Made by a program: the position numbers and the translations under genes | The notes under the pieces: model-generated | Told to the model about the DNA's origin: nothing | The model's database searches: none | What the model saw: only the letters and a program-made list of their open reading frames with translations | DNA from: an uncultured Butyrivibrio sp. | GTDB taxonomy: Bacteria; Bacillota; Clostridia; Lachnospirales; Lachnospiraceae | Direction: 5' to 3' | Length of the DNA stretch: 12,577 nt | NCBI GenBank assembly: GCA_947169985.1 | Contig: CAMVRW010000041.1 | Location: 1 to 12,577, forward strand | Part shown: one piece after another, positions 2,992 through 8,128 of the stretch | Layout: every line of letters starts with the position of its first letter | Numbering within the stretch: the first letter of the stretch is position 1

Positions 2992-4204
2992 ATATACAGT
3001 CACACAGGTTAATTCTTACATAAAGAATATGTTCACCCAGGACTTTCTCCTTAAGAGCCTTACGGTGAAGGGAGAAGTCAGTAACTGTAAGTACCACTCC
3101 TCAGGGCATATCTATTTCACCCTGAAGGATTCAGGTGGCTCCATAGCCTGCGTGATGTTTAAGGGCGACGCAGACAGAGGCCTTAAGTTCCGAATGCAGG
3201 AGGGGCAGCAGGTCAAGGTTTCCGGCGCCATAACTGTATATGAAAGAGATGGTAAATACCAGCTTTATGCCAGACTTATAGAACTGGATGGAGCTGGAGT
3301 TCTTTATGAGAAATTTGAAGAACTGAAGAATAGATTAAAGGAATCAGGCATGTTTGCTGATGAGTACAAGCAGCCGATTCCCAAATACATACGAACTCTC
3401 GGTGTAGTAACGGCTCCCACAGGAGCAGCGGTTCGGGACATTATAAACGTGTCCACCAGGAGGAATCCGCATATTCAGATCATTCTTTACCCTGCCATAG
3501 TACAAGGTGATAACGCTGCCGAGAGTATAGTCAGAGGCATTGAGTATCTGGCCCGGACTGGGGTAGATGTCATTATTGCCGGACGTGGCGGAGGTTCTAT
3601 AGAAGATTTATGGGCTTTCAATGAGGAGATCGTGGCACAGGCGATCTTTGACTGCCCAGTCCCAATTATCTCAGCTGTAGGGCATGAGACAGATACCACA
3701 ATAGCAGATTTTGTTGCAGACAAGAGGGCAGCAACCCCTTCCCAGGCAGCAGAACTGGCAGTTTTTGAATACGACAGGTTTATACAGGACCTTAAGGATT
3801 ATCAGTATACCTTAGGACTTCGCATGGACAGGAAGCTAAGGAGTCTTTCCCTTGAGGAAAAGAGATATGCAGAGAGCCTTAAGCACTTAAGCCCCATGGG
3901 CAAAATCCGTGACAGGCAGCTTCGAATGGATCAGTACCAGGATATGCTTGAGCAGGCTATGACCAGAAGGCTTCAAAATGCAAGGCACCGCCTGAACATT
4001 GATGTGGAGCGGCTTAAAGGTCTTTCTCCCCTGGACAGGTTAAAGGGCGGTTATTCCTACGTTTCCGGTACTGAAGGGAAGAATGTCCGCAGTATCAGTG
4101 ACGTGGAAGTAGGTGATGAGCTGAAAGTTTACGTAAGTGATGGAACCTTAAGTGTTACGACAACAGGGAAAGAGGCAGAGACTATATGGCAACAAAAAAA
4201 TTAG
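2981..4204 (+). CDS. xseA: Exodeoxyribonuclease VII large subunit
   Basis: XseA is the catalytic subunit of exonuclease VII, which degrades single-stranded DNA from both ends in repair and mutation avoidance. The 407-residue product has an N-terminal OB-fold (about residues 4-100, with VKGEVSN and [13 protein letters not shown]), a catalytic domain (about 120-330) with [14 protein letters not shown] at 201-214 and the [21 protein letters not shown] block around His235 and Asp238, a helical coiled-coil part, and the closing [14 protein letters not shown] motif. The start is TTG at 2981 inside the end of nusB. It is the only usable start, because a stop in this frame lies at 2972-2974; GGAG sits 12 bases upstream. 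The gene overlaps xseB by 19 bases, which suggests translational coupling of the two subunits. It ends in TAG. Confidence 0.95.
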
Positions 4205-5372: not shown

Positions 5373-7166
5373 ATGCTGCTTGATCAGATAAATAATACAG
5401 GTGACATTAAGAATATACCCAAGAGCGACTATAAGGAACTTGCCCAGGAGATAAGGGAATTTCTTATTGAGAAGATTTCCGTGACAGGAGGCCATCTGGC
5501 ATCCAACCTTGGTGCAGTGGAACTTACCATGGCTCTTCACATTGCCCTGGACCTTCCTAAGGATAAGATCATCTGGGATGTAGGACATCAGTCCTACACT
5601 CATAAGCTTCTAACAGGCAGAAAAGCCGGGTTTGACACTCTTCGTCAGTACGGAGGAATGAGTGGTTTTCCAAAGAGATGCGAGTCTGATGCTGACTGTT
5701 TTGATACAGGACACAGCTCCACATCAATTTCTGCAGGTCTTGGAATGGTCAAGGCTAGAGATCTTAAAGGCGATGATTATGCAGTTGTTTCTGTAATAGG
5801 AGACGGCTCTTTAACAGGTGGTCTTGCCTATGAAGCACTTAACAATGCTTCTAAGCTGGAGACCAATTTCATCATAATCATTAACGATAATGAGATGTCC
5901 ATTTCCGAAAGTGTCGGTGGAATGGGTAAGTACCTGGACAGCATGCGAACAGCCCAGGGATACCTTGATCTGAAAGAAGATGTTTATGCACAGCTTCGCA
6001 CCAGCACTAAGATCGTGGATTCCATCAGAAGAGCCAAGAACAGTGTCAAGCAGCTCTTTGTACCGGGAATGGTATTTGAGAACCTTGGCATTACCTACCT
6101 TGGACCTGTGGATGGACATGATACAGCTGGCCTTGTAAGGGCCATTAAGGAAGCAAGAAAAGTTAAAAAGGCTGTCATGATCCATATCGTGACCAAGAAG
6201 GGTAAGGGCTACGAGCCTGCAGAGAGACACCCTGCAAGATTCCATGGAACGGAGCCTTTTATCATTGAGAACGGAATCCCAAGGAACCCAAGAACAACCT
6301 CCAACTACCAGGATATCTTTTCCACAGTTATGTGTAAGCTTGGAGCCAGGGATGAGAAGGTTGTGGCCATTACTGCAGCAATGGCAGACGGAACGGGACT
6401 TAAGAGATTCAGGAACATGTATCCCGACAGGTTCGTGGATGCAGGCATAGCGGAAGAACATGCTGTAACTTATGCAGCAGGCCTCGCCATTGGTGGATAT
6501 AAGCCGGTTTTCGCAGTTTATTCCTCATTCCTTCAAAGGGCTTACGATCAGGTGCTTGAGGATGTGTGCTTGCAGAATCTCCCTGTAGTATTTGCCATAG
6601 ACAGAGCGGGACTTGTAGGTTCTGACGGTGAGACTCACCAGGGTATCTTTGATCTGTCCTACATGTCTTCAATGCCCAACATGCATGTACTTGCCCCCAA
6701 GAATAAATGGGAGCTTTCAGACATGCTGAAGTTTGCAGTGAACTATAACGGCCCAGTGGCCATCAGATATCCCAGAGGAAACGCCTACGATGGTCTTAAG
6801 GAATTCAGAGCACCGATCGAAATGGGCAAGTGCGAGCCGATCTATGAGGAGAAGGACATATGTCTTTTAGCTGTAGGCAGCATGGTGAAGGTAGCAGAGG
6901 AAGTAAGAAATATCCTCAAGGACCACGGATTCAAGTGTTCTCTTGTGAACGCAAGATTTGTTAAACCAATAGATACAGACTATATCCACAGAGCGGTAGG
7001 AACCCACAGGCTCTTTGTAACAATGGAAGAGAACGTGGCCTCAGGCGGATATGGAGAGAAGGTCAGAAGCTATATCGGGGAAAAGAAACTTGATGCGAAT
7101 GTGCTTTCCATCTCCATCCCGGATCAGTTTGTTACTCTTGGAAGCGTGGATAAGCTCTTTATGTAG
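5373..7166 (+). CDS. dxs: 1-deoxy-D-xylulose-5-phosphate synthase (apparently ended early by TAG)
   Basis: DXS joins pyruvate and glyceraldehyde-3-phosphate using thiamine diphosphate, the entry step of the MEP isoprenoid pathway. The 597-residue product has the three expected domains: an N-terminal ThDP domain with GGHLASNLG, DVGHQ and the ThDP motif GDGSLTGG (143-150) to NDN (171-173); a central pyrimidine-binding domain with catalytic Glu361 in AEEHAVTYAAGLA and DRAGLVGSDGETHQG; and a transketolase C-terminal domain beginning around residue 480. Active-site residues are all present, so the enzyme should be functional. It stops at TAG 7164-7166, short of E. coli DXS (620 residues). The same frame beyond the stop still encodes a DXS-like tail (see the entry at 7164-7220). 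GGAG at 5363-5366 is six bases before the ATG. ispA lies just upstream. Confidence 0.95.
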   Translation: MLLDQINNTGDIKNIPKSDYKELAQEIREFLIEKISVTGGHLASNLGAVELTMALHIALDLPKDKIIWDVGHQSYTHKLLTGRKAGFDTLRQYGGMSGFPKRCESDADCFDTGHSSTSISAGLGMVKARDLKGDDYAVVSVIGDGSLTGGLAYEALNNASKLETNFIIIINDNEMSISESVGGMGKYLDSMRTAQGYLDLKEDVYAQLRTSTKIVDSIRRAKNSVKQLFVPGMVFENLGITYLGPVDGHDTAGLVRAIKEARKVKKAVMIHIVTKKGKGYEPAERHPARFHGTEPFIIENGIPRNPRTTSNYQDIFSTVMCKLGARDEKVVAITAAMADGTGLKRFRNMYPDRFVDAGIAEEHAVTYAAGLAIGGYKPVFAVYSSFLQRAYDQVLEDVCLQNLPVVFAIDRAGLVGSDGETHQGIFDLSYMSSMPNMHVLAPKNKWELSDMLKFAVNYNGPVAIRYPRGNAYDGLKEFRAPIEMGKCEPIYEEKDICLLAVGSMVKVAEEVRNILKDHGFKCSLVNARFVKPIDTDYIHRAVGTHRLFVTMEENVASGGYGEKVRSYIGEKKLDANVLSISIPDQFVTLGSVDKLFM

Positions 7167-7220
7167 TTGGGAATTGATGCCTAGTCTATTGCTGAGAAAT
7201 TAATGAAGGAAGTACGGTAA
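7164..7220 (+). other. Remnant or readthrough C-terminal tail of dxs crossed by two in-frame TAG codons
   Basis: Reading on in the dxs frame after GSVDKLFM gives TAG (7164-7166), LGIDA, a second TAG (7182-7184), SIAEKLMKEVR and finally TAA at 7218-7220. Bacterial DXS proteins commonly end with a block of the kind LGIDA-x-SIAEKI, with a polar or charged residue where each TAG falls. Apart from the two amber codons this 18-codon stretch therefore looks like the normal end of the enzyme. The TAA is eight bases before the tlyA ATG, the close spacing seen at other junctions of this cluster. Either the gene was shortened very recently by amber mutations, or the codons are read through, or the sequence carries base errors. 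The homology is my recollection of the family, not an alignment. Confidence 0.6.
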
Positions 7221-7228
7221 GATTATTT

Positions 7229-8128
7229 ATGGCAAAGGAAAAAGAAAGACTTGATGTCATTCTGGTAAATAGAGGACTGGCGCCATCAAGAGAGAAGGCT
7301 AAGACCCTTATCATGGCCGGTGAGGTTTTTGTAAACGGCCAGAGAGAGGATAAGCCGGGAACCACCTTTGAGGAAGCTAAGATAACTTCCCTGGAGGTTA
7401 AGAGAGATACACTTCCCTATGTCAGCAGAGGCGGTCTTAAGCTTGAGAAGGCGGTCAACAACTTCGGTTTTTCTCTTGAGGGAAAGGTGTGCATGGACAT
7501 TGGGGCATCCACAGGAGGCTTTACAGACTGTATGCTGCAAAATGGAGCGGTGAAGGTCTACTCAGTAGATGTGGGACATGGGCAGCTTGACTGGAAGCTT
7601 CGAAGTGATCCAAGAGTCGTTTGCATGGAGAAGACCAATTTCAGATATATGGTCAGGGATGATATAGATGATGAGCTGGACTTTGCGTCCTGCGATGTGT
7701 CTTTTATCTCACTGACAAAGATACTGCTTCCTGCAAGAAAGCTTTTAAAGGATGGCGGCGAGATGGTATGTCTCATAAAGCCCCAGTTTGAAGCAGGCAG
7801 AGATAAGGTTGGCAAAAAGGGAGTTGTCAGAGACCCGGAGGTCCACAGTGAGGTGGTCCACCGGATATTTGACTTTATGGGGATTGCAGGTTTTGATGTG
7901 CTGCATCTGGATTATTCACCCATCAAAGGACCTGAGGGGAATATTGAATATCTGATCCACATCAGAAAGAACCCCGATATGAATGAGAAGGTAAAAGACC
8001 TTACAGAGGCTGAAGGTGAGAAGCTTCTTAAGGAGATAGAAGGTACAAAAGAAGGCATTTCATATAATGAGGAGAACAGAAAGCTGGTGGAGGCTGCAGT
8101 AGCCGGTGCTCACGGAGAGCTTTCTTAA
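7229..8128 (+). CDS. tlyA: TlyA family rRNA (cytidine-2'-O)-methyltransferase
   Basis: TlyA enzymes use S-adenosylmethionine to 2'-O-methylate rRNA; Mycobacterium TlyA modifies 16S C1409 and 23S C1920, and the Bacillus homologue is yqxC. The 299-residue product has an N-terminal S4 RNA-binding domain (about 1-65, with RLDVILVNRGLAPSREKAK and AGEVFVNGQ) and an FtsJ/RrmJ-type methyltransferase domain. The SAM loop is DIGASTGGF at 90-98. A K-D-K-E catalytic set can be placed at Lys71, Asp156, Lys184 and Glu240. It is slightly longer than the relatives I know, with an extra acidic C-terminal helix. The ATG at 7229 begins at the S4 domain; the nearest purine-rich sequence is GGTAAG just upstream. 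nadK starts six bases after the stop. It could equally be called a haemolysin-annotated gene in older records, but there is no haemolysin feature. Confidence 0.92.
   Translation: MAKEKERLDVILVNRGLAPSREKAKTLIMAGEVFVNGQREDKPGTTFEEAKITSLEVKRDTLPYVSRGGLKLEKAVNNFGFSLEGKVCMDIGASTGGFTDCMLQNGAVKVYSVDVGHGQLDWKLRSDPRVVCMEKTNFRYMVRDDIDDELDFASCDVSFISLTKILLPARKLLKDGGEMVCLIKPQFEAGRDKVGKKGVVRDPEVHSEVVHRIFDFMGIAGFDVLHLDYSPIKGPEGNIEYLIHIRKNPDMNEKVKDLTEAEGEKLLKEIEGTKEGISYNEENRKLVEAAVAGAHGELS

Follow-up and report, generated by a model that had tools for sequence, protein, structure and literature searches.

In the known amber-recoded or amber-suppressing genomes, TAG occurs in frame within conserved genes. An in-frame TAG can also come from base calling: in early Genome Analyzer chemistry, G was called T from about cycle 25 onwards, followed later by A and C, an effect that Kircher et al. 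(2009; PMC2745764) attributed to T accumulation, the build-up of T fluorophores. Later Illumina instruments have other biases, towards G on HiSeq and towards G and T on MiSeq in the comparison given in PMC4787001, so the platform matters for any reading based on T miscalls. At the protein level, the DXS relatives among the matches listed belonged to Butyrivibrio and other Lachnospiraceae; P0002-P0004 were the closest of these (97% identical), P0004 being the DXS of Butyrivibrio sp. AE2032.

The window, i.e. the whole stretch of 12,577 nucleotides analysed here, carries a dxs gene which, as the sequence stands, lies at 5373..7166 on the forward strand and encodes 597 aa up to a first in-frame TAG. 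This ORF matched TIGR00204 (DXS) with 753.6 bits, passing the curated cut-off of 465.95, and covered positions 3-595 of the 616 in the profile, compared to position 614 reached by the intact P0004. PF13292 was complete (1-274 of 274) and PF02779 was scored as complete (4-172 of 174), whereas the match to PF02780 ended at 113 of 124, having started at 1, and that of P0004 spanned all 124 positions. Re-reading of the sequence confirmed the unbroken frame described in the initial annotation: VLSISIPDQFVTLGSVDKLFM is followed by the first TAG (7164..7166, +), LGIDA, a second TAG (7182..7184, +), SIAEKLMKEVR and a TAA (7218..7220, +), where P0002-P0004 end in VLSIAIPDQFVTHGSVDKLFKELGIDAQSIAEKVMKEVR. 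The in-frame remainder (7167..7217, +) is the segment that completes Transketolase_C (PF02780) in P0004.

The tail had been proposed to be the DXS C-terminus, with Glu, Gln or Lys expected at the two interrupted places, and both proposals agreed with the alignments. P0002-P0004 carry the matching tail and end at the position of the TAA. The first place was Glu in 27 of 29 aligned relatives (Lys in one, Met in one) and the second was Gln, Glu or Lys in 14, 13 and 2 of the 29, respectively; none of them stops at either place, and the codon-by-codon comparison showed sense codons throughout the tail in G010 and other relatives. Among the best 120 of 7,996 scored proteins, the truncated 597-aa form occurred on one contig only, that of the window, and the other homologues were 614-621 aa long in 119 of 119 cases. 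In 85 DXS loci the distance from a motif to the protein end was 32-51 residues, compared to 16 residues up to the first TAG in the window, a count based on a narrow motif on one strand that matched 85 of 109 loci, the 24 unmatched ones being dropped.

The next gene in the same order is tlyA (7229..8128, +), which starts 8 nt after the TAA and 62 nt after the first TAG. In 34 of 39 distinct relatives the dxs stop and the matched tlyA start motif were separated by -1 to 9 nt (25 nt in one, motif unmatched in four), a range that includes the close spacing said to be restored by the TAA. As the tail reads as the DXS C-terminus, PF02780 is complete only with it, and tlyA lies at a normal distance only when the spacing is counted from 7218-7220, this TAA is the natural end of dxs. 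The gene resembles that of AE2032 in its 97% identity over 597 aa, in its C-terminal frame and in the position of its final TAA; in the last 35 residues it differs by four substitutions and by the two TAGs.

These differences formed a patch at 7113..7202 (+). Over 615 residues, the window differed from AE2032 DXS at 22 positions, including A581S, H589L, K597M, E598 to stop, Q604 to stop and V610L in residues 581-615. All six, which include both TAGs, fit single-base changes to T on the + strand and lie within 88 bases, with several source bases (G in three cases, A in two, C in one). The anomaly starts at 7113, upstream of the first stop, and runs to 7200; this upstream start and the shared target base T had been missed by the initial annotation. 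A581 and H589, both located before the first stop and both changed in the window, do not vary among the 29 relatives. Among the 16 differences in residues 1-580, by comparison, one was an unambiguous single-base change to T, and at that site the residue of the window is common to 24 of 29 relatives. The share of changes to T differed significantly between the two segments (6/6 versus 1/16; Fisher p = 9.4e-5), as did the clustering of at least 6 of the 22 differences in the last 35 residues (p = 8e-4), with the caveat that six sites are few and that the AE2032 codons were inferred from its protein sequence.

A similar contrast was obtained over the genes of the window as a whole (3,866 codons with 8 to 29 relatives per codon, codons with fewer than 8 being left unscored). 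There were 110 window-unique residues, 74 of which were one base from the codon of a relative with a single target base; that base was T in 6 of 6 cases within 7100-7217 and in 12 of 68 elsewhere (Fisher p = 1.0e-4). All 100-base stretches with at least four T changes overlapped the dxs patch, which held six, and the next one listed held two. Pairwise against genome G004, over 42,067 codons, the patch again ranked first for changes sharing one target base (six to T, runner-up five of one base), against a baseline of 18% of single-base amino-acid differences going to T, and no second T patch as strong was found in these codons, which represent part of the genome. The end of xseA (4091-4190) had the most window-unique residues of any part of the window (7 per 100 bases, compared to 6 in the dxs patch), with no one-base bias.

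That both interruptions are TAG, with no TAA or TGA, had been put forward as a possible sign of something special, as had the rarity of TAG among the stops in the window. Both facts hold (among 13 genes, TAG ends two, xseA and dxs, TGA four and TAA seven), but the first is no special sign. Single-base changes to T could create a stop in the dxs of the window as TAG in 66 cases, TGA in 44 and TAA in 23; since codon use favours TAG when bases change to T, the identity of the two stops needs no special cause.

Of the four meanings initially offered, sequence error was the one favoured by the tests, with six clustered changes all directed to T. Whether or not constraint is relaxed, natural substitution should not turn G, A and C into T exclusively. 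The locus is very probably an ordinary dxs in which a patch of erroneous base calls in this assembly affects the last ~100 bases. With 376 contigs and a completeness of 66.85%, the genome is fragmentary, and a genome this thin makes it possible for a contig to rest on few reads. Here, the contig may rest on the late cycles of one or a few reads, in which other bases would have been called T; such a miscall in a codon ending in AG would yield TAG. The pattern resembles the T accumulation described by Kircher et al. (2009; PMC2745764) in its direction (G, A and C to T, mostly from G) and in its extent of about one read length, and differs from it in that the cause in this assembly is deduced from the pattern of bases. 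Two observations run against miscalling: the lack of a second T patch in the sampled contigs, which indicates that it is not pervasive, and two other interrupted genes (a TAG in a P-type ATPase gene and a TGA on contig C6) that fit no patch of T miscalls. The initial observation of a DXS C-terminus crossed by two amber codons was correct, and there is a strong likelihood that an artefact, the leading candidate cause, lies behind it. In the cell, a normal DXS of ~615 aa ending at the TAA at 7218-7220 is the most likely product.

An artefact of this kind calls for caution, as one-sided miscalls to T in a thin assembly create TAG in genomes where AAG, GAG and CAG codons abound, and can mimic recoding. 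The target base of the neighbouring substitutions offers a quick test for such miscalls. No published work on premature stops in metagenome-assembled genomes was found in the literature searched.

The main rival of sequence error is a real and very recent truncation, in which both TAGs are present in the strain and its DXS, lacking the last 18 residues, still works or is backed up elsewhere. The unbroken frame with no indel would agree with this, as would the complete catalytic domains PF13292 and PF02779 upstream, and the in-frame stops in two other genes are equally compatible with errors and with a lineage that is decaying or has recently mutated. A truncation does not account for the shared target base T of all six changes despite their differing source bases, nor for the two changes that precede the stop at sites invariant in all 29 relatives. 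Moreover, DXS sequence is still recognisable beyond the stop, PF02780 would stop at 113 of 124, the nearest relatives are intact, and the genome, 66.85% complete, yielded no other full-length dxs. This explanation was therefore considered unlikely, and among the published work on DXS truncation in the literature searched, none evidently bears on this point. If the stops were real, an isoprenoid-synthesis enzyme would tolerate the loss of its conserved C-terminus, or a Butyrivibrio would read through amber.

A real mutation shower is another conceivable cause. According to the 'A rule', A is inserted opposite lesions, and several lesions in one strand copied in this way would yield G, A and C to T on one strand inside ~90 bases, as seen here. 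Such a mutation shower requires six substitutions in one lineage, surviving in a gene expected to be essential, and has no independent support in this analysis; as a cause of the clustered changes it appears highly improbable. It is likewise very unlikely that a burst of lesions, confined to one strand near the end of dxs (last 90 bases) and each copied with the same wrong base, has left a living cell whose DXS lacks the C-terminal segment.

A full-length DXS would also result if TAG were suppressed, reassigned or subject to programmed readthrough in this lineage, which is the least plausible of the explanations and very improbable. The preserved tail after the TAGs would fit recoding, and both dxs stops and the P-type ATPase stop are TAG; codon use, however, favours TAG when bases change to T, and one of the interrupted genes carries TGA. 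RF1 was intact (prfA, C16:8803-9873; 544.8 bits against a cut-off of 423.25, no internal stop). The check proposed initially for a tRNA with a CUA anticodon gave none among 38 ARAGORN tRNA genes at 37 Rfam matches in the 66.85% complete genome, which is not proof since a third of the genome is absent from the assembly; two tRNA genes with the anticodon 'tag' were tRNA-Leu for CUA codons (ARAGORN). TAG ended 48 of the 634 long ORFs counted across 884,730 bases of the genome; in the G004 sample the figure was 37 of 670. Among orthologues with a TAG end, 14 of 15 stopped within 6 codons of the G004 end, dxs being counted under TAA in this table because its match runs through both TAGs. These RF1, tRNA, stop-use and orthologue-end results point to TAG serving as an ordinary stop in this genome, unlike amber-recoded or amber-suppressing genomes: here RF1 is kept, TAG is in ordinary stop use and a CUA tRNA was not found in the incomplete assembly. 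Suppression or reassignment was set aside on this basis. The suggested readthrough giving two forms of DXS was not supported either: all 29 aligned relatives lack a stop at both places, and so do the 119 other proteins listed (best 120 of 7,996). Nothing on an amber suppressor in Butyrivibrio was found in the literature searched.

As other genes with an in-frame TAG had been proposed as a check, interrupted genes were inspected in the rest of the genome. Frame continuation after long ORFs gave 96 candidates with at least 35 free codons (62 TAA, 26 TGA and 8 TAG), nearly all of which, on inspection by eye, had the look of ordinary neighbouring genes or short open stretches. One interrupted gene was picked by eye among them, a P-type ATPase gene (PF00122) with an in-frame TAG at L208 (G000:C24):5324-5326, where the relatives printed have Tyr. 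This stop involves a change to G rather than T and stands alone, outside any T patch. In the homology scan, 130 G004 genes had a match of at least 60% identity, 8 of them with stops inside the match. Six were set aside because their stops fell either within residues 2-31, where the upstream sequence matches poorly, or at residue 241 of 246, which left dxs and a gene on C6. The latter is interrupted at residue 19 of 978 by an in-frame TGA (L158 (G000:C6):18085-18087) and aligns with a 978-aa G004 ORF on either side of the stop, the upstream residues being well matched. Interrupted genes thus exist in this genome beyond dxs, with amber in two of the three, and the C24 and C6 stops may be separate errors or true mutations.

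Elsewhere in the assembly, 13 tightly packed tRNA genes (His, Ile, two Arg, two Ser, Trp, four Leu, Tyr and Glu) were found at positions 3460-4660 of L244 (G000:C157). They adjoin genes for a DUF2828/DUF7788 protein and a WYL-domain protein, and this array is perhaps an RNA-related or mobile-element tRNA cluster.
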